In this document: piece by piece, positions 1,806 through 61,497 of the stretch | How the letters are laid out: each line of letters begins with the position of its first letter | How positions within the stretch are numbered: the first letter of the stretch is position 1 | Source of the DNA: Isoetes taiwanensis | Lineage: Eukaryota; Streptophyta; Lycopodiopsida; Isoetales; Isoetaceae | DNA: 64,000 bases | NCBI GenBank assembly: GCA_021234155.1 | Contig: JAJEKV010000005.1 | Coordinates: forward strand, 26,320,620-26,384,619 | Direction of reading: 5' to 3' | The notes under the pieces: model-generated | The model's input: only the letters and a program-made list of their open reading frames with translations | Databases searched by the model: none | What the model was told of the DNA's origin: nothing | Position numbers and translations under genes: made by a program

Positions 1806-3355
1806 TATTGGTTCTTAGATTCCGGGGCAACCTGTCACATGACTCCCATTCGAAAAATCTTCATCAGTTATCAATCTTTGCAGGAGGATAGAACAATGCG
1901 CATGGGAGATAATCACCTTTAGCATGCCAAAGGAATTGGAACAGTCAAAATCAGACCAAGTCCGGTGTTCCTAAACTCCTCAAGGACGTCTTGCATGTAC
2001 CCGGACTGCACAAGAGCCTACTGTCTGTAAGTAAGATCACTGATGCAGGGTTTGTTGTCTCATTTGAAACAGGCTTTTGTCACATTCGAAATGCTTATGA
2101 AGAAATCATCCTCACTGGCACTAGACAAGGTAACCTCTATCAAATTGCAAATGTTTTTGAGGAAGCTAATCTTGCTGCACTGAATACCCCTCAAGCTCTA
2201 TGGCATTCTAGAGTTGGTCATATCTCATATGCACGCATCAATCACTTGATTCACAAAAAGTACTTACCCAACAAATCATCTTTAGTCTTGCCTTGCAGTC
2301 ATTGTCTTCAGAACAAAATTACTCATGCCCCCTTTTCTGCCTCTGACTCTGAGACATCCAGAACTCTTGAGTTACTCCATGTTGACTTGGGTGGTCCAAT
2401 CAAGTCTTCAACTCTGCAAGGAGCTCGTTACTTCATGTTGATCCTAGATGATTATTCTCGAAAGCACTTTGTGTATATGCTACACAACAAGAGTGAAGCC
2501 TTCACACATTTCACAGTCTTTCTTCTTGAAGCCGAAAGATCTACAGGGAACAAGTTAGCTATACTTCGAAGTGATGGAGGTGGGGAATTCACCTCAAATG
2601 CCTTTAAAGATTTCTATGCCAGAGAAGGAATTCAGCATCAGATAACAGCCCCTTACACACCTGAACAAAATGGCAGGGCAGAGCGTGCAAACAGAACCAT
2701 TATCGAGATGGCAAGAACCATGCTCAGTGCTCGACAAGTTCCAGCAGAATTCTGGGGGGAAGCTATTCTCACTGCAGTATACATCACAAACCAAGCTCCT
2801 CACAGTGGTATCAACAATCAGCTGCCAGAAGAAGTTTGGTCAAGAAGATCTGTAAGTCTTAAGCACTTAAAAGTTTTTGGTTGTCTTGCTTTTGCGCTTG
2901 TTCTCAATCAACCGAAATTTTCTGCCAAATCCAAAGCCTGCATGTTTATTGGCTACTGCACAACCCGAAAAGCCTATAGGCTATTTGATCTTCATCAGAG
3001 AACCCTACTTGTCACCGCTCATGCATCCTTCAATGAATTTGAATCTTGCTTTCCTGTCACAAATCCACCACCCTCTTTCATACTGCTTGAAGAAGAAGTT
3101 CCAACACATTCTATCTGCTCAACACCTGACTTACCTACACCTTCAAATTCTGCTGAAAATGCTCCCCCTTTAAGTCACAATTCTGAGACATCTGATCCCT
3201 CTCCTGATCCTTCCCCTGTCAAGGTATCATGTCGACCCTACAGAAATCGAAGACCTCCCATATGGGCTAAAGATTATGTATTTCATATCTCTGAGCAACC
3301 CATTGAACCAACATCTTATGAGTTAGCCATGCTTACCCCTAAAAATCATGTTTAG
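1806..3355 (+). pseudogene. Copia-1 protease and integrase
   Basis: The protease starts with WFLDSGATCHMTP near 1806 (catalytic Asp in DSG), and its frame is lost before 1991. From 1991 an open frame of about 454 codons holds the GAG-pre-integrase zinc region (WHSRVGHISYARINHL then CSHCLQNK) and the integrase core. The core acidic triad is seen as HVDLGGP, RSDGGGEFTS and PEQNGRAERANR. The Copia-typical KVFGCLAF segment follows. The frame ends at 3355, where about 70 residues joining integrase to RT are missing. Role in the family: polyprotein cleavage and cDNA insertion. Confidence 0.9.
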
Positions 3356-4846
3356 TCTTGATTTTGATCAGACATATGCCCCGGTAGCCAGAATGACTTC
3401 AATTCGAGTTTTGCTTGCTCATGCCACCAAAAGCCGTTTTTATATTCATCAGTTAGATGTAACCAATGCCTTTTTACATGGGGATCTTGCTGAAACAGTC
3501 TATATTGAACAACCCGAAGGGTTTGCTATTGGATCAGCCTCAGATTCTGTCTGTACACTGCACAAAGCCCTTTATGGCCTTAGACAAGCACCTCGTGCGT
3601 GGTATGCCAAACTTCATCAAACTTTAACTGATCTTCTGTTCACTCCTACCCATGCAGATCCCAGCATCTATGTCCGCCATGATAATTCACCTGTGTTTAT
3701 CATATGCTATGTAGATGATCTCCTCATCATTGCAGCAAGTGAAAAGGATCTGACTCTTCTGAAATCCCAGCTTCAATCCAACTTTAAAATGAAAGATCTA
3801 GGTCAAGTACACTACTTTCTTGGCATAGAAATCTCTTATGATCAGTCAAATGGAACTTTATCCATGAAACAGACCAAATACTTGCAGACTCTGATCAAAA
3901 ACCTTGGCCTTTCTGATTGTCACCCAGTGAAAACACCCATGGAAACTAATCTTTCTCTGCTTCCAAACGACCCAGAATGTTCCTCAAACATGCAGTACTT
4001 TTGTGATAATTATAGAAGCATCATTGGATCATTGAACTTTGCAGCTCTAACCACACGACCAGATCTGTCTCTTGTCACATGCAAACTCAGCCAATTCTCA
4101 GTCTCTCCAAAACAAACTCATTGTACTGCTCTCAAAAGATGTCTCAGGTATCTTGCTGGCACAGTCGAGTCTGGCATCATATACAGTGCAAATAACACTA
4201 CACATCTTCTTGGCTATTCGGACTCTGACTGGGCAGGGAATTTGCATGATCCTCTCTACGCGTTGATAATTTCAACTTGATCTTTTTCTAACATCTGATG
4301 GTTGTCTCCAATATTACCAACCTATGTAGCATCATTCCCTTTTTTCTGCTCACTCAAATCCATAACTTACTTTATTTTGATGACCCCCCTTAATATAATG
4401 TAAGAGAAGATCCCAGAAGATCCCTTCATAGAACTTCTACCTCAGGTTATGCATTCATTATTGCATGAGGCGTTATCAGTTGGAAATGCACTAAACAGAA
4501 GTGTGTGGCTCAGTCTACAACTGAAGCTAAGTACATTGCACTTGCTAGTGCAAGTAATGAGGCAGTCTGGCTACAACAACTGTATATGGATTTGGGCATA
4601 CAGATTAAACTTCCACTGATCATTTTCTGTGACAACCAGGGGACAATTGCCATCTCCAAAAATCCAGTTATGCATGCTCGAATGAAGGATGTTGATATCA
4701 AATTTCATGTGGTTAGGCAGCTGGTTGAGGAAGGAAAGATCAAGGTTGATTATTGTTGCACATATGACATGGCTGCAGATGTATTAACTAAGGCCCTTGC
4801 CAATTTGAAGATGTGCAAAAATCTGAAACAACTCGGAATGTTTTGA
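3348..4846 (+). pseudogene. Copia-1 reverse transcriptase and RNase H
   Basis: The RT starts abruptly inside its N-terminal part (FDQTYAPVARMTSIRVLLAH) after a deletion. It retains QLDVTNAFLHGDL, YGLRQAPRAWY and the catalytic YVDDLLI, then HYFLGIEIS. RNase H begins with SDSDWAGN and is cut by an insertion at about 4253-4413. It resumes with STSGYAF, STTEAKYIAL, CDNQGTIAI and MAADVLTKAL, ending at 4846. All signature blocks of Copia RT/RNase H are present, but the deletion, insertion and a stop near 4468 make the product non-functional. Confidence 0.93.
4253..4413. mobile_element. 161-bp MITE-like insertion in Copia-1 RNase H
   Basis: The RNase H frame stops after residues NLHD and resumes about 160 bp later. 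The insert is flanked by GATCC at 4248-4252 and 4409-4413, which looks like a target duplication. Its ends, TCTCTAC and GTAAGAGA, are nearly inverted. It is AT-rich and non-coding. No family can be named. Confidence 0.5.
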
Positions 4847-21100: not shown

Positions 21101-22110
21101 TTGGCACTGGAATCGAATTTTAATGTCTCCTCCAAGTTTCAATGAACATAGAGTAAAACTTTATAGGTTATCTAGTTTATAGAGGGTGTAAGAGTTTGTA
21201 TAGCTTTTATTTAAGGAAGGTCAAAATAGCAGTGACACTTACCATTAGAAAATAAGTTGTCTATAAGGTCATTGTAACGAGATATTCCAGCTTCATTTGA
21301 TTCTGTTCCTCTGCCCTCTGTTCAAGCTTAGACTTTGATAATGATGCTGATAGTGATTTTGCCTCATAAGAAGACAGAATTAATTGAAATTTTGCAATTG
21401 ATTTGAATTATTGGCATGTTCAGTATTATCGAGACAGGGGAGAGGAAAAGGCTAGAGAAAGAAAGTAGGAAGAAAATCATTTAGGTCTTCCTTATTGGGA
21501 TTTAATAATCTAGAATTTTTGTGTCTTACATTCCCTCTTAAAAAAGCATAGGGTCAATACTAACATGCATATGCAAAGGTGCATTCTCATCGGTTCGACT
21601 AATGGTGATGAGCTTAGAAATCTTTTTGAATATTTTTAGTTTAATGCATATCACTGAGGCCTTAATACCTTTGATAATTTAACTGGATATGGCCACATCT
21701 TAAGTTGCACTAGATTCTATACTTTGGATGCGCAAAGGTTAATGACATAGTAATTATTATTTCTACATGTTCTTATATATTGGTAGGCTTTGATATCGGC
21801 CAAGTGGCATGCATCGCCTCAGCTGGTGGCACCGCTTGGAAGGTAAAGAACCTAAATTCCTCATCGCTGCAATAAATCAGGCTATAAAACTGCACAAATT
21901 AATTCAAAAACTAGAATCTAGCTCTGATTTTAAGTGGAAATTCGAAACAAACCATTGATTTATTTGAATTTGAGCTGAGACTTGATGGTTTGTTTCGATG
22001 TGTTGTTTCGATTTACAGGATCCAATGACATCGAAGTGGTGGATGAGGATGGGCGATAAATATTTAGGGGTAATCTTCATTATCTGATCCCTCCCCCTCC
22101 CCCCCCCCCA
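21100..22110. other. Non-coding stretch
   Basis: No gene or element recognised. A poly-C tract at about 22090-22109 adjoins the Merlin-like transposon. Confidence 0.55.
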
Positions 22111-22375
22111 GAGCGTGGACCAAAATGCCACGCAAAGCCGCTTTGCTTTACATTATTGCCGTCCGCTAACAAAAAAATGCCGCCCGTTGTCTTGTTGTTT
22201 CTTTAATACAGTAGTCGTTGCTAACAGCAAAAGTAGATGATGACTTGCTCCAGATCTAGACTAACAAACACATCCGTTTAACAAATTGATCCGACTACCT
22301 GCTCTCCGAAACCTTTAAAAATCGAAATGGATATCAGTTCTTCAAGGTTTGAGGATCATCAGCAGCTTGGTAGCA
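22111..22375. repeat. Left terminal inverted repeat of Merlin-like element
   Basis: About 265 bp, inverted match to 23583-23850. Contains GCTAACAAAAAAATGCCGCC and CAGTAGTCGTTGCTAAC. The match weakens over about 25 bases near 22135-22155. Confidence 0.9.
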
Positions 22376-22693
22376 TGGGTCACCTTTGTTATATAGCCCC
22401 CCCTCCCCCCTCCCCCTGGCGTGGACTGGGACATCCACATGGGCTAAAAAAATTCACGGGCGGCATTTCTTTTTGTTAGCTGATGGCAACAGCAGACAAA
22501 ACTTTTGGTTAGGATCATTTTAACGGACAACATGAGCGACATATTTGCGACATCAAATATCAGAGCCGACACAACATATTAGAGCCTAGAGACCAGAAAG
22601 AAAACAGAGAAAAAAAAGATTCTACACAATTTTTATAGCAGAAAAACCTGTTTCAGATCAAATTACTAGTTATCCTTCTTCTTCTGGATCATT

Positions 22694-23575
22694 TTAATGC
22701 TCACTGCTATACAATTTCACATGATTTATAAACATCTTCCTCGGCAATTTCTTTCTCCACATGTACTCAAAGAAGTATGACTCATAGTGTGCCTTCAATG
22801 TTCCATATCTCGGAAGAGAGCACTTCACTGCACCCCAAGTGCTCTCAATTCTGTTGGTGTGAACACCTGTTTCAGGATCTTTGAAATGCAGGCTATGATT
22901 AACTGTGTAATGCTCATATTCAAGCTGAGACAACCATTCTGTATCATATCCCGCCCAATAGTCACTGTAAATGATACTTCCTGGAGACACATATTGGAAA
23001 ATAATGTCTGTGAGCGTATCTTTTGTACGATCTGCAACTGGAACCATGAATATGTTATTGGAATTGTGTTCTATACCATCAAATACCCATTGATCTTCTA
23101 CTCTCCTTCCTCTATTGTATTTTCTTTTACCAAACTTGCTTTCATCAATCTCAACCACTTTGCCTGAGCCACCTATGACCTCATTCTGTTTCTATATTGC
23201 AATGCTACAAATATCTCTGCAATAATTGTGCCAATTGACCATCGTTTCATCTGTTTTTATTCTACATTCAATCTTAGCACGATCTTGAGGCAACTGAATC
23301 GACCAACAGTAGATGAGTCTCAAAATTTGAGAAGTGTCTTTACGAAGACTGCAAGTAAAATGACACCTCTTACCTTTACATTTCCATTTCTTACCATCTC
23401 TAGTTCCTGCATTGTCTATTCTTAATTTCATTGATTTATGGCATTTCTCACTTTCCCTTCTATATGGCTGTAAACCCAAATCTAAAAACAAAGAAATTGA
23501 TTCATTCTTACTTGAGGTCTTAAAAAGTCGTTCGGACATTGTTGAAATCCTGTGTTCTTCATCCAATAACTCCAT
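22694..23575 (-). pseudogene. Merlin/IS1595-type transposase, one in-frame stop
   Basis: One reading frame of 294 codons including the stop, from ATG 23575 to a stop at 22694, interrupted only by TAG at 23192-23194 just before QNEVIGGSGKV. The N-terminal part carries a zinc-ribbon-like segment typical of the family (GKKWKCKGKRCHFTCSLRKD). The DDE core follows: VEIDESKFGKRKYNRG (first Asp), GSIIYSDYWAGY (second Asp) and HTNRIESTWGAVK (Asn/Glu region). The aligned order and spacing match the ISXO2-like transposase domain. The enzyme would cut and paste the element using its inverted ends. With a single stop, decay is recent or the copy is read through; otherwise the frame is intact. Confidence 0.88.
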
Positions 23576-23582
23576 TTGACAA

Positions 23583-23850
23583 TGCTACCAAGCTGCCAAT
23601 GATCCTCAAACCTTAAAGAACTGATATCCATTTCGTTTTTTAAAGGTTTCGGAGAGCAATTAGTTGGATCAGTTTGTTAAACGGATGTGTTTGTTAGTTT
23701 GGATCAGGAGCAGGTCGTCGTCTACTTTTGCAGTTAGCAACGACTACTGTATTAAAGAAACAATAAGACAACGGACGACATTTTTTTGTTAGCAGACGGC
23801 AACAACAGAAGAAGAGGACGGCTTGCGTGGCATTTTTTGTCCATGTCGGG
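23583..23850. repeat. Right terminal inverted repeat of Merlin-like element
   Basis: Inverted partner of 22111-22375, starting eight bases upstream of the transposase ATG and ending near GTCCATGTCGGGG. The transposase promoter would have to lie within it. Confidence 0.9.
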
Positions 23851-24400
23851 GTCTTTTGTATAACGAAGACTACCCGTACCTTTCATGGGTCTCATTTTTC
23901 GAACCATCCCTGCACCAGATATTAACATCGGCATTAAGAGGTCGGGTTGGCCAAAATCTCAATCACAATTTGAAAGAGGAATATTTTGAAACTGCTGCCT
24001 ATACTCATGACGCCTCTGAATAACATGGATCAAAACGTACCAAAATCGCCCAGAGCTGTTCTTCAGAGTGAATAGCCTAAAGTGAATCATCGATGGCTAG
24101 CTTGTTGTGTACACCGTAGCCAATGGTCTAAAGTTTTTCGCACTCGAAGTGCTCAAAGGGTCGGATCATAAACTGTAAAAGCTCAAGGCTTCAAATTGCC
24201 TCCATCACTGTATCTTTGCTTGCAGAAAGTCGGTACAGCATAATACAACGCACACACGACTTCTCCTTCCCAACTACGCCACTAGTTTGCCGAAAAAAAC
24301 TTTCTGATTCTAAATGTGATTTTTTTTGCCGTAAAACATTCTTTTTTGGAATTCGTTTGGCTTGAAATTTTTTTTCTTTTTTTGCTAGTAATCTTATACA
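23850..24400. other. Spacer, nothing recognised
   Basis: Mixed-composition DNA with no gene or repeat boundary visible. Confidence 0.5.
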
Positions 24401-24670
24401 TAGGAAGATAGTGTCTATTAGAAAATACATAGGATATTATGTTTATTAGAAAATACATAGGATAGGATATTGTGTTTATTAGAAAATACATAACGATATG
24501 GTGACGATTGGAAAATACATAGGATATGGTGTTCCATTTTAAAAAAGCTATCTTTGAAAAGCTATGGGGTAAACATTGATATACTAAAAAACCTGTCTTC
24601 GAAAAAAGGAGAGGGTCTTTTTTTTACTATATGTATACATAGAAAATGCATAGGATATGTTGTGATTAGA
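24400..24670. repeat. AT-rich minisatellite, unit about 30 bp
   Basis: GAAAATACATAGGATAT-type units recur at 24421, 24449, 24482 and 24511, with single variants near 24645. Related units occur near 20950-21080. Confidence 0.8.
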
Positions 24671-38310: not shown

Positions 38311-38938
38311 TCACCATAATCTTCCTAAAGACCTTCCTATCACCTTCCCCAATACCTGGAACCAGAGCTTTAAATCTTGTCCAAGTAATCCATCTCTATC
38401 ATTTTCCCACAACTGCCCAACCTGACGAATTCCTGCAACATGCCATTTAGTAAACACTCGAGGATGTACAAGTGCAAGAGGGAGCGCATCCCTCTCCCAA
38501 ATCCTAGTATTCCAAAATATACTCAGCCCCCCTGCCTCCCAATGAGCATCTGCTATACTGAAGAGATTCTGCACATCCTGCCAAGCTTCTAATATTCCTC
38601 ATTACTGGGGAAGTACCTCAACCCATTGAGAATTTATAGAAATAGGAGCTAACCTCATCTCTAGGGGTCGAAGGTTTCCCCTTTATCTTACCTTGTTGTA
38701 GCCAGTAACGCACAAAGGAAATAGCTAGGGATGCGTCCCCTTGGATAGCCCTCCAGACAAACTTGGCTGCCAAAACCTTTCCCTGGACCATTGGGTCTTT
38801 ACATCCCAATCCCCCATCCTTCCTACTTCGGCACATTTCTGACCATGCAACCCCAACTAGGTCTGGTACAGTGGTGAACAAATCTAGACGCATCAGTAGA
38901 CCCACTTTGAAGTCTAGAGAAGCTGCAGCCCACATCCA
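38311..38938 (-). pseudogene. LINE (L1-type) 3' remnant
   Basis: The minus-strand frame from 38935 reads VAWSEMCRSRKDGGLGCKDP, then VLAAKFVWRAIQGDASLA. This is the region after the RT palm of plant L1-type LINEs (W--VC-PK--GGLG--D, ---LAKW-WR). A second frame (38574-38311) has WERDALPLALVHPRVFTKWH, similar in place to the zf-RVT part. The 5' side is lost at about 38940, exactly where the plus-strand Copia remnant starts. Confidence 0.8.
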
Positions 38939-38941
38939 AAA

Positions 38942-40484
38942 GAACTATGACTGATTCTTATGCTCAACAATGGAAAGTTGCCATAGATGCTGAATTTCAA
39001 TCATTACAGAAGAATGGGACTTGGTCCTTAGTGCCGCTCCCTAGTAATAGAAGACCTGTAAGCTGTAAATGGCTCTTCAAAGTCAAGTATAAAGCAGATG
39101 GAAGTATCAATTGTTTCAAAACAAGACTAGTGGCACGTGATTTCACACAAGTTGCAGGTCTGGACTTCACAGAAACATTTTCTCGGGTTGTTAAATTGGT
39201 GTCTATAAGGGTGTTACTTCCATTTGCCGTGGAATTTGATTTGGAAATTCAGCAAATGGATGTTAAAACCACTTTTCTCAATGGCGAACTTGATGAAGAC
39301 ATTTACATGCACCAGCCGAAAGGCTATCAATGCCCTGAAGCAGAAGAACTTGTTTGCAAGTTGAATCGAGCAATTTACTTTTTGAAATAGTCTCCTCGTA
39401 TGTGGTATCAACTAATTGACAATTTCTTGATTTCTTTAGTTTTTGAGCAGAATATTGCAGATTCTAATGTGTGCATTCGCCAATAAGGATCTCAAATGTT
39501 TGGCTTAATTGTTATTTATGTGGATGATTGTACTCTTATCAGTAATAATATGGCAGCTCTTCAAGCAACAATTGCAAGCGCATTTTGAAATAACTGACTT
39601 GGGTGACATTGATTACTCTTTAGGGATACAAGTGACTGGAGACATGAGGAGGAGAATAATATCAATGTCTCAACGTCGTTATATCCTTGAGGTGTTATCT
39701 CGTTTTGGCATGATGGACAGCAAACCAGTAAGCACACCAATGGAGACAGATATGAAGCATTACAATGAAGATTCACCCAAGACGAATAATGAAAGAAAAC
39801 TAATGCAGCAGGTTCCATATAGACAAGCCATTGGAAGTCTCATTTATGCCATGATCTGCACTCGATCAGATTTGGCATATTTTGTGGGAATTGTCTCTCG
39901 GTTATAGAGAACCCAAGTCAAGTGCATTGAAGAGTGTCAAGAGAATCTTTAGATATTTGAGAAGCACATTTCAGTTTGTGTTATGTTTTCAAGCAATAGG
40001 AAGTCCAAGACTTCAAGGTTATACTGATGTTGACTGGGCAGGGAATGTAGAGTCAAGGAAGTCAACATCTGGGTATGTTTTCAGCCTTGGAAATGTTGCC
40101 CTCTCATGGAGTTCAAAGCAGCAAGTTGCTTTGTCCAGTACAGAGGCAGAGTACATTGCTGCCACTCATGCAGTAAAGGAAGCAATTTGGCTACGCAAAT
40201 TTGTGGAAGGCCTGCATCATGCAAGTGTGAATGGTCCGACAGTAATTTACAGTAACAATCAGGGTTCTATTGCATTAACCAGGAATCTTAAATATCCTTC
40301 GAGGACAAAATACATCGAGACTCAGTTTCAATTCATAAGAGAGCAAGTGCAGAATGAGGTTCTCAAACTATAATATGTTGGTACAGAAGAAATGGTGGCT
40401 GATGTATTCATCAAGCCATTGTTCAAAGAAAAGTTTGAGAAGTATAGATCAGCACTTGATGTTCTGAAGATAGATGAAGAGTGA
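38942..40484 (+). pseudogene. Copia-2 RT and RNase H remnant
   Basis: Starts inside RT (MTDSYAQQWKVAIDAEFQSL, NGTWSLVPLP, FKVKYKADGS) and continues with QMDVKTTFLNGELDEDIYMH, a YVDDCTL catalytic block and GDIDYSLGIQV. RNase H follows: YTDVDWAGNVESRKSTSGYV, LSSTEAEYIAATHAVKEAIW, NNQGSIALTRN, then ADVFIKPLFKEKFEKYR to a stop at 40482-40484. There are at least four in-frame stops (39388, 39484, 39905 and 40371 regions) and a frameshift near 39585. No gag, protease or integrase is present, so this is a 5'-truncated copy. Confidence 0.92.
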
Positions 40485-44015: not shown

Positions 44016-44298
44016 TGTTAAGTTTTGTTAGAGACAGATCAGCATGCCTCCAGGTCAGCAAACAGAAACATAACAGGAGATTGTTACAACAGAAGATCCA
44101 CAAATAGATCTAACCGTTGGGTGATCACCATAAAAAGAAGAAAGGGGCGCCACAAATTCATCCGGCATCTCATTCTGCCAGCATCTTTTCTTGTATCTCT
44201 TCAGTTCAATTTTCTATCTTCCTGTTCAGGCTTATGAGCCACCAGTTGTACTACATCTTACTATATCAATCCAGATTATTCTTCCTTTTATCTCATCA
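44016..44298 (+). repeat. 5' LTR of Copia-3
   Basis: 283 bp, about 97.5 % identical to 47476-47758 (seven differences counted by eye). Confidence 0.95.
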
Positions 44299-44313
44299 GG
44301 TTATGGGCCCACG
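44299..44313 (+). promoter_or_regulatory. Primer binding site, half-tRNA(iMet) type
   Basis: GGTTATGGGCCCACG, identical to the site at 859-873 of Copia-1, immediately after the LTR. It pairs with the anticodon arm of initiator tRNA-Met. Confidence 0.85.
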
Positions 44314-44427
44314 CCTCGGCCTCCCACTCCTGTCCAGAATACTACGCCACACTTTTCAAGCACTGGTATCCAACCAGTTCACCTATTTTCAAGCAATGAT
44401 ATCCAGGGAAATCGTGACATTGATCAA

Positions 44428-46198
44428 TGGTATCTTGACTCTGGTGCCACATCTCACATGACACCCAAGAAAGAGTACTTTGCATCCTACCAGCCTGTTA
44501 ATCCTCCACGTATTGTCAGACTTGGGGACGATTCTCGGCTGCAAGGAATTGGTATTGGTAACATTTCTCCACTAAGGTCATTCGAAATGTCTTGCATGTC
44601 CCAGACCTCACTAAAAATCTTCTCTCCATCAGTCGTATTATTTTATCAGCATCAATGTCAGATTTTTGATGCCACTGGCACCTGCATTCTCTCTGGTACA
44701 CGATATTAGAATTTATATCAGCTTCAATTGGAGGAGTCTGCTAATGTCTGCACCACACCAAATTCAACTCATCTTTGGCATCAAAGGTTGGCCCATCTGA
44801 GTGCATCCCGTCTGCAATCCCTTGCCAAAACAGGAGATCTCCACCTTTACCCATCTCCCTTGCAACGCTTGTCTCCAATGTAAGGTCACCAGATCTATTT
44901 TTCCTCTCTCTTCCAGTCATGCCTCTCGCTGCCTTGAATTGATTCATGCAGATCTCATCGGCCCAGTCAAATATCCCACCTGTAATGGAGCTAAATATAT
45001 TCTGGTCCTCTTGGATGACTTTTCAAGAAAGCTTTTTACGTATTTGCTCAAAGTCAAAAGTGACACCTTTGCTAATTTTATCCTTTTTAAGAAAAGCTCT
45101 GAAAATTTCCTTTCCTCCTCAATTGTTACCCTCCGCACTGATGGTGGTGGCGAGTTCACCTCCAATATATTCCAAGACTTCTATTACAATCATGGCATTC
45201 GCCATGAGCTTTCTTCTCCACATTGTCCTGAGCAGAACGGACGTGCTGAACGAGCCAATCGCACCTTGCTTGAAATGGCCAGAACCTTGCCATTATCCAT
45301 GAACGTTCCTCACAAATTCTGGGGGGAACCAATTGCCACTGCCACATATCTCATCAATCTTCTACCCCACAGCGCCATTGGCAATGCTATCCCTGAGGAA
45401 AAATGGACCTCCCAATCAGTTTCTCATCACCACCTCAGAGTTTTTGGTTGCAAGGCCTTTGTGAACTCCTCTCCATCCCACAAATTGGCACCCAAAGGCT
45501 TACCGTGCATGTTCATTGGATACAGTTCCATTCACAAAGCCTATCGATTCTATGATATCAGCTCACACAAGCTTGTAATCACTCCCAATGCCACCTTCAA
45601 TGAGCTTGAAGCATGCAACCTTGAACCTCTGCCTCCAAACATGAATCTCATAGAAATAGTCCCTGATTCTGATATTGGCATCCCTGATGTGGACCCGCCC
45701 TGCATACCCTCTCATGCTTCTCTCTCTTCCAGTGCCTCTAATGATTCACTACCTCCCAGTCCTCATCCCACAGCTCCCAGCACTCAGATGGAACTATCTT
45801 GTCGTCCCACACGCCAGCGCAGGCCTCCTTCATGGACCCAAGATTATGTAATGCTATCAAGTGATATTATATCAAAGCCCAAGAATTTCTCTGAAGCAAT
45901 GCGCACCCCTTATAAGATGGAATGGCACAAGGCCATGCAGGCAGAATTGAATTCTATTACTCACAACAACACTTGGTCAGTCGTTCCTTGCCCTCCCAAC
46001 CGACCCATTGTTGGGAGCAGATGGGTCTTCAAGGTCAAGTACTCTAGCACTGGCACTGTTGAGCGCTTCAAAGCTCGGTTCGTTGCCAAAGGTTTCAGCC
46101 AAGTTGAGGGTGTCGATTTTGATGAGACATATGCACCGGTGACTCGTCTAACTTCTATTCGAGCTCTTTTAGCTTATGCCACTGTTCATGGTTTTTAG
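44428..46198 (+). pseudogene. Copia-3 protease, integrase and RT start
   Basis: The protease opens WYLDSGATSHMTPKKEYF. A TAG after CILSGTRY and a one-base shift near 44840 interrupt the way into integrase. Integrase has LWHQRLAHLS, CLQCKV, IHADLIGPVK, LRTDGGGEFTS and CPEQNGRAERANR, then RVFGCKAF. RT then begins: EWHKAMQAELNSITHNNTWS, FKVKYSSTG, KARFVAKGFSQVEGVDFDET and YAPVTRLTSIRALLAYA, ending at a TAG at 46196-46198. An open frame runs from the LTR (44191) through the primer site into protease, which could let translation start in the LTR. Confidence 0.92.
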
Positions 46199-47443
46199 AT
46201 TCATCAGATGGACGTGCACAACGCGTTTCTTCATGGTCATCTTGACGAGGAGGTCTACATTGATCCACCTGAAGGTTTCCCCTTTCCACAAGACTCAGTA
46301 TGCAGGCTTCATAAAGCTTTATATGGGTTACGTCAAGCCTCCAGAGCTTGGTATCAGACTCTCAGAACTGCCCTCCATCAACTTGGATTTTCTGCCAATG
46401 ACACAAGTCTCTACTTTCAGTTACAGCCCTTCCCCATTTTTATCGTTGTTTATGTTGATGACTTACTCATCCTTGCTCATCCCCAAGCCGATCTTCCTGC
46501 TCTTAAAAATCAACTTTCCTCATGGTTTTCCATGAAAGATCTCGGGCAGGCCCATTATTTCCTTGGCATCCAGCTGGTGTATGATCCCATACAGCACACT
46601 CTGTTTCTCAGTCAGCAAAAATACCTTGCGGATATCCTTTCTCGCCACAACCTTACAAATTGCAATCCCACGACCACTCCTTTGGATCCCAATTCACATC
46701 TCCTTCCCTCTGATCCCCCGTGTTCCCCTGACTTTCTTTATTTTCAAGAACACTACCGCTCTATCATTGGTTCATTAAACTTTGCAGCTCAAGCCACCCG
46801 CCCTGACCTTGCTCTTCCAATATGCAAATTATCCCAATTTCTCAATTCTCCTCGACAGTCCCATTGTGTTGCCCTTAAACGCACCTTACGCTATATTGTT
46901 GGCTCCCTAAATCATGGTCTCCTGTACACTTCCAGTGGGGGTAGTTCTCTGCTGGGTAATTCTGATGCTGATTGGGCCAGCGAATCTCAGGACCGGAAAT
47001 CCATCTCTGGATATGTTTTTACTATTGCTGGGATTGCCATCAGCTGGGCAAGTTCTAAACAACATTGTACTGCTCTCTCTACCACTGAAGCTGAGTATGT
47101 AAGCTTAGCTCATGCCACCCGAGAAGCTATCTGGTTACACAGTCTCCTTGCAAGTCTCCAACTCCACATCCCTCTTCAAATTCCACTGCATAATGATAAT
47201 CAGGGTGCTTTAGCTGTTGCTCATAACCCTGTTAATCATAAGCCTCTCAAACATATTGATCTGCGCTATCATTTCATTCGAGACCAACTTGCCAATTCCA
47301 CCATCTCCTTAGCCTATTGTCCTTCAGCCTCTATGCCTGCAGATATGCTCACTAAAGCTCTCCCATCTCCCAAACTGACTCAGTTCTGCACCGACATTGG
47401 TCTGATTCCAGCCAGCTCTTCTCTGAGTGGGGGCAATAATTAA
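46199..47443 (+). pseudogene. Copia-3 RT and RNase H
   Basis: Directly continues the RT after the single TAG: HQMDVHNAFLHGHLDEEVYI, YGLRQASRAWYQ, VVYVDDLLILAH and GQAHYFLGIQLV. RNase H: NSDADWASESQDRKSISGYV, LSTTEAEYVSLAHATREAIW, NDNQGALAVAHNPVNHK, ADMLTKALPSPKLTQF. It ends at 47443. The frame is otherwise open for over 410 codons, far better preserved than Copia-1 or Copia-2. Confidence 0.93.
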
Positions 47444-59958: not shown

Positions 59959-61497
59959 TTATCTGTTATTGGGCAGCAAACTCATAAAAAGTGCAACGTT
60001 AGGTTTAAGCAATATCTCCTTCATAAAGTCCTCCGATTCATCGAACTGTCCTGCCCTTCTAAAAAGGTCAATAACGCAGCCATAATGCTCAGATGTGGCA
60101 GTAATATTATAGTCTTTACTCATGGAAGCGAAATAATGGCAACCCTCATGCACTAAACCTGCATGACTACATGCAAAAAGAATATTGATAAGGGTGACTG
60201 TATTTGGCAACATGTCACATTGCTGCATTTTTCCAAAACTTCGCAATGCTTCTGCTATGTTTCCATGGTGTGCATATGCCATGATCATGGTATTCCACAA
60301 TGCTACATCTTTAACAGGAACTCTGCTGAAAACCCCCAAAGCATTTTCTAAATTTCCAGACTCTGCATACATGTTCACCAGGGCAGCCCCAACAATAACG
60401 TCGGAATATAGACCAGAATTAAAAATTTGGCTATGAATGAGGATGCCCTCAGCAATGTCAGCTACATGAGCACAAGCATTGAGGACTCCAACAAAGGTCA
60501 CATTGTTTGGAGTAACATTGTTCATACACATTTCCCAAAATAGTCTAATGGCCTCCTCCTCAAACATTTGCTCAGAATAAGCTGCTACCAAAGTAGACCA
60601 AGTAATCAGATCCTTCTTCGGCATTCTGTCAAAGACCACCCTTGCATTTGCAACACTGTTTGCTTTACCGTACATATTAACAAGAGCATTTTCAACAACC
60701 AGAGATGATTTGCACCCTACTTCATAAGTATAAGCATGAAGTAACTTACCTTCTTCGAGAAATGCATGGCTTCTGCATGCATTTAGACATGAGATGAAGC
60801 TTATATGATCTGGTTTAACACCTCTGCGACACATATCCCAAAAAAGATGAAGAGCATCCTGGTCCAACCCATGAAAGACATAGGCTGCAATCATGGCATT
60901 CCATGTTATCAAGTTGCGATTAACCATTTTATTAAATACAATCCAAGCATCTTCAATTTTACTGCATTTGCTATACATATGTACAAGGGAAGTGCCTAAA
61001 ACAACATCTGACTCAAATCCTTTGTAAATACTGTGGGCATGGATGAGTTTTGCCTCTAAGAGAAAAAATGGGGTGTCACATACCTTAAGAATTGTATTGA
61101 ATGTGATGATGTTTACGTCCAGGTTCTTGGCATTCATATGGCAAAAGAGACCAAGAGCTTCCTTTCCATAGCCAAGGGAAGAATAGGCTGATAACATAGC
61201 ATTCCAAGATATTATATTCCTCTCTGGCATGTTATCAAACACAAAAAATGAGTCAATGATGCTGCCCCAATTGGCATACATCCCAATAAGAGTATTGGAC
61301 AAGAATATTTCATGAAGTTTATTGATAATGAGAAAGGCATGAACTGGTTTGCCCCGTGAGATGGTTCCTGCTTTAGACAAGAGGGCAGCGCATGTGCTAG
61401 GTTCCAAGTTTTTACCAAGCTCCACAAGGGATGTAAAGTTCCTGACAGACTGAGCATTTCTGACATATAGATGGAAACATGGCATTTCCAACAACAT
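59959..61497 (-). CDS. PLS-type pentatricopeptide repeat protein
   Basis: A single uninterrupted frame of 512 residues. The start ATG at 61497 has an in-frame TAG just upstream. It holds repeated PPR units of the plant P-L-S pattern: KPVHAFLIINKLHEIFLSNT, GSIIDSFFVFDNMPERNIIS, WNAMLSAYSSLGYGKEALGL, then similar units through LINILFACSHAGLVHEGCHY. PPR proteins bind organelle transcripts one base per repeat and guide editing, splicing or stability. The last repeat (EILLKPNVALFMSLLPNNR) stops at the point where E, E+ or DYW domains usually begin, so this copy lacks an editing domain and may be C-terminally truncated. No clear targeting peptide is seen; an upstream exon may supply it. Confidence 0.93.
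   Translation of the reverse strand: MLLEMPCFHLYVRNAQSVRNFTSLVELGKNLEPSTCAALLSKAGTISRGKPVHAFLIINKLHEIFLSNTLIGMYANWGSIIDSFFVFDNMPERNIISWNAMLSAYSSLGYGKEALGLFCHMNAKNLDVNIITFNTILKVCDTPFFLLEAKLIHAHSIYKGFESDVVLGTSLVHMYSKCSKIEDAWIVFNKMVNRNLITWNAMIAAYVFHGLDQDALHLFWDMCRRGVKPDHISFISCLNACRSHAFLEEGKLLHAYTYEVGCKSSLVVENALVNMYGKANSVANARVVFDRMPKKDLITWSTLVAAYSEQMFEEEAIRLFWEMCMNNVTPNNVTFVGVLNACAHVADIAEGILIHSQIFNSGLYSDVIVGAALVNMYAESGNLENALGVFSRVPVKDVALWNTMIMAYAHHGNIAEALRSFGKMQQCDMLPNTVTLINILFACSHAGLVHEGCHYFASMSKDYNITATSEHYGCVIDLFRRAGQFDESEDFMKEILLKPNVALFMSLLPNNR

Follow-up and report, generated by a model that had tools for sequence, protein, structure and literature searches.

We report herein that a 64,000-nucleotide stretch of the Isoetes taiwanensis nuclear genome (the window, which begins 26.3 Mb into contig C1056) almost certainly carries a dead cut-and-paste DNA transposon of the Merlin superfamily, lying beside the truncated, inverted start of a second copy, at a damaged neprosin-like gene. 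The profile DDE_Tnp_IS1595 (PF12762) matched positions 22694-23191 on the minus strand with an E value of 2.5e-16 (60.5 bits, the cut-off being 27), and the three catalytic residues D, D and E, in the motifs EIDES, SDYW and RIES, are all kept in this C-terminal half of the transposase, which bears out a preliminary description of an IS1595/ISXO2-like transposase with three catalytic regions. The N-terminal half (23192-23584, minus strand) is open and aligns with other genomic copies up to a TAG at its end (23192-23194), which splits the frame; relative to L001, one of the related copies, it lacks nine codons of the zinc-ribbon region at CSLRKDTSQI, where L001 reads CSLRKGTWFASSRLTLSQ. Judging from this split frame and the nine missing codons, the window transposase is dead.

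Two short termini are common to related copies: GGGTAGTCTTCRTTATA, which lies 5' of the transposase, and GGGTCACCTTCGTTATA, which lies 3' of it. One of the two has been lost or mutated in some copies, L005 for example having been affected at its 5' end. The former type of terminus occurs at 23875 of the window and the latter at 22377, so that 22377-23875 is taken as the complete, though degenerate, unit. It is ~1.5 kb long with the transposase on the minus strand, has nearly full-length homology to L001 and L004, and its termini, GGGTCACC...GACTACCC, match those of another copy, L012. The imperfect ~20-bp ends comprise a terminal inverted repeat on the transposase 3' side (GGGTCACCTTTGTTATATAG, 22377-22396, plus strand), nearly identical to the terminus beside the L012 target duplication, and one on the 5' side (GGGTAGTCTTCGTTATACAA on the minus strand, 23856-23875), recognized by comparison with other copies including L012. 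The preliminary description had recommended aligning genome copies to find the exact ends, and it was this alignment, through the shared short termini, that gave 22377 and 23875; its own ends, 22111 and 23850, proved to fall short of the outer termini (22068 and 23875) by 43 and 25 bp. The outer left terminus belongs to a second copy, inverted relative to the unit, of which only the first 309 bp are present (22068-22376, plus strand). This truncated 5' end starts with a GGGTAATCTTCATTAT terminus at 22068, is over 224 nt 91% alike to the 5' end of the unit itself, and is cut exactly at the unit's start (22376|22377).

Genomic copies, their ends and short derivatives

The genome searched comprised 1,658,258,908 bases in 1,110 contigs. 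The window DDE region, used as a tblastn query, gave at least 152 matches (150 of 282 candidates scored), some of them pieces of one copy, and the PF12762 profile gave 70, every one above its cut-off. Thirty-four loci with transposase pieces (L001-L034) were fetched. Since some of these are mutual duplicates (L001-L003; L006 with L009; L007 with L008), the matches are not all independent insertions. A quick tree separated at least five Isoetes Merlin subfamilies and grouped the window copy with L005, L010, L011 and L012; divergence within one subfamily was ~8-22% in the comparisons made, so that any recent activity would be hypothetical. Stop-free frames spanning the whole transposase (319-384 codons) were found at six loci (L012, L013, L015, L021, L024 and L026). 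L005 and L014 also have long open frames, but with a deletion or a changed C-terminus.

Some copies are grouped or interrupted. On C1053, at least 20 Merlin-related matches lie within 95 kb (G000:C1053:1504212-1598942) in a dense cluster of subfamily B, and a 10-kb slice of it, L027, holds several repeats of 94-98% in both orientations; perhaps this cluster reflects local amplification or nested insertion. Smaller clusters occur on C1097, C1039, C985, C1045 and C1049. At L006-L009 (C1079 and C1066), one Merlin unit is apparently split by a ~14-kb insertion, in two duplicated segments that are 92% and 96% alike. A 16-kb "element" defined by distant end pairs on these two contigs was rejected, as it appears to be this one split unit in its duplicated segments.

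Each of L001, L002 and L003 (on C445, C918 and C1045) contains two inverted Merlin units ~330 bp apart. This arrangement could mean that two inverted units move together as a mobile palindrome, with the window as a deletion derivative. However, the three loci are duplicates of one locus, with 87% and 81% similarity running through 5.5 kb that includes both flanks, and inspection of their outer ends by eye showed no duplication. Because the recurrence is thus that of a single locus, we rejected a mobile palindrome as very unlikely and retained the reading of one dead unit beside part of another.

Target duplications were scanned for by requiring GG...CC ends, with at most four mismatches in the first 14 terminal bases, and, flanking these ends, an exact direct repeat of 8 or 9 bp. 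Seven of the 34 loci (L002, L003, L006-L009 and L027) were left out as duplicates, interrupted halves or a dense cluster, and 922 mixed pairs, with the left side from one locus and the right side from another, served as the control. An exact duplication with matching ends was found at 4 of 31 transposase placements versus none of the 922 controls: TATATCATA at L012 (9 bp), TCGATCTG at L015, GTATATGC at L017 and CTCAATCT at L034. Near-matches with seven of eight bases were seen by eye at L004 and L013. A relaxed scan returned L021 and L026 as well, which were discounted for their unrelated ends and one mismatch. The other 27 placements, the window included, gave no exact duplication plus ends in the scan.

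GGG stands at both ends of L012, L015, L017, L034 and the short elements described below; GG was demanded by the scan, and the informative part of the ends is the third G and the bases that follow. The terminal repeats are short and imperfect, with three to four mismatches in the first 14 bases, and are recognizable over ~20 bp; in subfamilies D and E the ends are not pinned by duplications. The end motifs GGGTAGYCTTCSTTAT and GGGWSACCTTCSTTAT occurred 44 and 109 times, versus 4 and 17 times for the reversed patterns. A search with one short element gave 55 genome matches, some of which were partial or were its own ends read backwards. Among 11 such loci fetched, both ends were recognized at eight (152-196 bp) and no second end at three. 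Four of the 11 carry an exact duplication around an element of ~190 bp (GTTGCTGG, AAAATTTTA, GAAAGTAG and TGTTGCCG); of the remaining two-ended elements, one has a 7/8 duplication and three have none, so that seven of the 11 loci are without an exact one. These short elements are MITE-like and have ends in common with subfamily C (L015 and L017). The numbers of placements (27/31) and short-element loci (7/11) without an exact duplication suggest that age, rearrangement or imperfect assembly affects many copies. Duplications of 8-9 bp, which the preliminary description had named as a check on its reading, were thus recovered at other placements and at short elements, and not around the window copy.

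Transposition can be pictured from the domain, termini, target duplications, short derivatives and protein constraint, as read in the sequence. In the mechanism that we infer, the N-terminal part would bind the ~20-bp ends starting with GGG, and the DDE core would cut both ends and insert the element at a target with an 8-9 bp staggered cut, the repair of which would generate the target duplications. The transposase of full elements may, in addition, mobilize the ~190-bp derivatives in trans. Like binding, catalysis and mobilization in trans, any current activity would be an inference from the sequence.

The ratio dN/dS was 0.16-0.29 in four of eight pairs of open copies, the other four, more distant pairs giving no estimate because dS was saturated; the transposase protein was thus under constraint while spreading. 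Constraint of this kind is also what one would expect if the open copies were not transposons but host genes domesticated from Merlin. That explanation would also fit the dense local clustering, as at C1053:1.50-1.60 Mb, and the fact that four of the six loci with fully open frames (L013, L021, L024 and L026) gave no exact duplication. On the contrary, in L012 and L015 the transposase frame is open and both the terminal repeats and an exact target duplication are present, and the short elements share their ends with subfamily C. Domestication is accordingly given a very low probability, and we regard the open copies as transposons.

Arms, edges and surroundings of the window copy

The preliminary description had assigned the window feature inverted ends of about 265 bp, that is, had read it as a single transposon with long terminal inverted repeats. 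Inverted arms do flank the transposase (22153-22376 and 23582-23805; 224 nt, 91% complementary), and terminal repeats of 24-462 bp are recorded for Merlin (PMC8101967). However, the left arm stops at 22376, and a complete 3' terminus (GGGTCACC...) starts right there. Moreover, long arms are absent from L004 and L012, each of them a single unit with the same two short termini, L012 with a perfect 9-bp duplication. No second junction of arm and unit like that of the window was found among the matches to the left arm (22111-22376; 17 matches) or to the inner end (22397-22700; 18 matches). Since related copies end at short termini and the window junction does not recur, long terminal repeats were rejected as highly improbable. 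The arms are real, but they are not terminal repeats; the left one is the truncated second copy at 22068-22376.

The outer left edge of this pair is supported independently by the gene that it interrupts. The 232 bp to the left of 22068 (21836-22067, plus strand) are what remains of a neprosin-like gene, which the Merlin pair interrupts on the 3' side. Five paralogues (L035-L039) were fetched from the 39 matches listed. Their homology to the window ends at 22067 in four and at 22065 in one, and all five go on with TGGGKTATTGG where the window has Merlin; this limit of 22065-22067 places the edge at 22067|22068. The Neprosin domain (PF03080) was found in all three paralogues scanned (L035, E 5e-41; L036, E 5e-41; L039, E 7e-24), and the two outside the Pfam scan, L037 and L038, diverge beyond the edge.

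On the right, the flank of the pair is not the continuation of the neprosin-like gene. In a search with the two flanks joined, five of six loci (L035-L039) matched the left flank to 22065-22067 and none continued into the right flank; at the sixth, L040, other parts of both flanks were matched, ~2 kb apart. No clean empty site occurs among these six loci, and the right side was thus lost or rearranged. Neither by eye nor in the scan for exact duplications was an 8-9 bp target duplication found at the window copy, around either the unit itself or the unit plus the truncated copy; together with the right flank, this shows that the site has been rearranged. Aberrant transposition, or a deletion ending at the transposon end, could be the source of both the 22376|22377 junction and the missing right part of the neprosin-like gene.

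Just to the right of the element, at 24396-24663, imperfect TAGAAAATACATAGGATAT repeats occur with a spacing of 28-131 bp, and the adjoining stretch from ~24263 has matches at many places in the genome. Further away, the window contains a PPR gene (59959-61497, minus strand; PPR_2, E 6e-51) and, by eye, copia-type retrotransposon frames at 1913-4280, 38911-40373 and 44134-47443, the last consisting of three long open pieces.

The transposase and its bacterial relatives

Complete relatives of the window unit encode one transposase of ~300-330 residues, in which an N-terminus with four cysteines, resembling a zinc ribbon, is followed by a helical linker and a DDE core of RNase-H-like type. DDE_Tnp_IS1595 was found in all eight open copies scanned, and D166, D227 and E266 (numbered as in L024) are invariant in two alignments (A1, 8 rows; A2, 10 rows). 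The NCBIfam IS1595 model NF033547 scored above its curated cut-off of 75 in the three Isoetes proteins scanned (91.1, 99.8 and 82.3 bits), as is expected from the relationship of Merlin to the bacterial IS1595 family. The corresponding zinc-ribbon profile, Zn_Tnp_IS1595 (PF12760), gave no match in eight open Isoetes proteins and three N-terminal pieces, and Merlin is described as being without the IS1595 zinc ribbon (PMC8101967). Nonetheless, the four cysteines of the Isoetes N-terminus align with the bacterial ribbon, and an hhalign comparison of the two, based on small alignments, gave a probability of 90 and an E value of 1.9e-6. The domain therefore looks divergent rather than lost in Isoetes Merlin.

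An AlphaFold2 model built from 10 sequences (mean pLDDT 75, pTM 0.71) places three short strands where the four cysteines lie, and also predicts a helical segment and a core that is RNase-H-like. The best matches to the model among solved structures were retroviral integrases, and the list includes IstA and Mos1 too; TM-scores were low (0.2-0.5), as expected where only the core is shared. A sequence search of solved structures gave no match.

A first scan of bacteria, with Isoetes-only patterns, found nothing, and all relatives among the matches listed from a second scan, with mixed patterns, were distant; in this pattern-based scan (80 loci kept of 354 confirmed), the bacterial or phage-borne relatives listed were 24-31% identical. 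In a quick tree that carries a long-branch warning, all 24 Isoetes rows fell on one side of a fully supported branch versus four bacterial or phage-borne rows (4 of 11 that passed the filter from 86 loci, L041-L126). The tree compares Isoetes rows with bacterial and phage rows only; assignment to Merlin rests on the domain, the ends and the duplications. Bacterial IS1595 elements (ISXO2 type; IS1016 group) resemble those of Isoetes in their homologous DDE domain and four aligned N-terminal cysteines, and generate 8-bp duplications (PMC8101967). They differ in sequence to the extent given above for the matches listed, and PF12760 matches both phage-borne proteins scanned and no Isoetes protein scanned. 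With the Merlin superfamily, Isoetes shares the IS1595-type DDE domain, a single transposase of ~300 aa, 5'-GG termini, 8-9 bp duplications and imperfect terminal repeats, although its ends of ~20 bp lie at the low edge of the recorded range of repeat lengths, for which 5'-GG is likewise noted (PMC8101967). The preliminary identification of a Merlin-type element in a plant thus holds, on the basis of DDE_Tnp_IS1595, the GGG ends and the 8-9 bp duplications of other genomic copies.

Bacterial contamination or a recent transfer from bacteria, for which one might cite the mainly bacterial distribution of the transposase family and the contaminants in the source assembly before filtering (PMC8566536), is exceedingly improbable given the low identity of the bacterial and phage-borne relatives listed, the presence of 28 of the 34 fetched loci on contigs >5 Mb, the diversity of at least five subfamilies, and the genes nearby, a neprosin-like one that adjoins the element and a PPR gene elsewhere in the window. 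The preliminary description, too, had judged contamination unlikely, a view that the position of the window deep within C1056, with its PPR gene and copia elements, further supports.

Merlin in land plants

Merlin is known mainly from animals, fungi and protists, and in plants chiefly as remnants. The superfamily was described in 2004 (Feschotte, as cited via PMC8101967). A 2021 survey of almost 700 streptophyte genomes, most of whose searches stopped in November 2019 and so predate the Isoetes genome paper, reported Merlin in three Selaginella species (Merlin-1_Smo), as truncated elements without functionally active copies, and degenerate copies in Rhodamnia, and suggested that Merlin was lost in derived plants (PMC8101967). 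The preliminary statement that Merlin is not among the usual plant superfamilies is therefore fair, but the superfamily had already been recorded in these plants. Merlin-1_Smo (Selaginella moellendorffii; Repbase, via PMC8101967) is likewise a lycophyte Merlin and differs, by its description alone, in being truncated and without functionally active copies. More generally, the streptophyte copies of the survey are truncated or degenerate, whereas this lycophyte host has subfamilies with open frames and ~190-bp derivatives.

No report of Merlin transposons in Isoetes was found among the literature matches listed, which largely comprise papers outside subscription, and the word Merlin is absent from the accessible main texts of the I. 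taiwanensis (PMC8566536) and I. sinensis genome papers. The latter absence suggests that Merlin may go unnoticed when repeats are annotated in seed-free plants. "Merlin's grass" is a common name of Isoetes and explains literature matches such as PMC8928685. Within the literature searched, Isoetes Merlin appears to be the first structurally complete Merlin that can be found for a land plant, the superfamily itself being known; this may surprise a specialist in plant transposons, yet it is not a new kind of system.

Where the 2021 survey portrays land-plant Merlin as dead remnants, largely lost (PMC8101967), Isoetes has several subfamilies, transposases that are open and under constraint, target duplications and, in addition, short derivatives of non-autonomous type, which shows that Merlin did work in a plant. 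A bolder scenario, which we put forward tentatively and consider rather doubtful, is that a Merlin lineage has been mobile in lycophytes since before Isoetes and Selaginella diverged, that most other land plants lost it, and that its transposases can still move full elements and ~190-bp derivatives. If so, no other Merlin with present or recent activity would be known from a land plant. Two questions can now be tested: whether the Merlin of lycophytes is ancestral or came later, for instance by the transfer that the preliminary description had offered as one possibility, and whether any Merlin transposase of a plant is functional today.

In flowering plants, according to the accessible texts, Merlin labels exist without described elements. 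The name serves merely for classification in several plant papers (PMC3823963, PMC2528002 and PMC10794571), an automatic repeat table for Metrosideros labels 1,100 bp as Merlin (PMC13084152), and single Merlin-labelled elements are placed near WOX genes of Brassica (PMC6482515).
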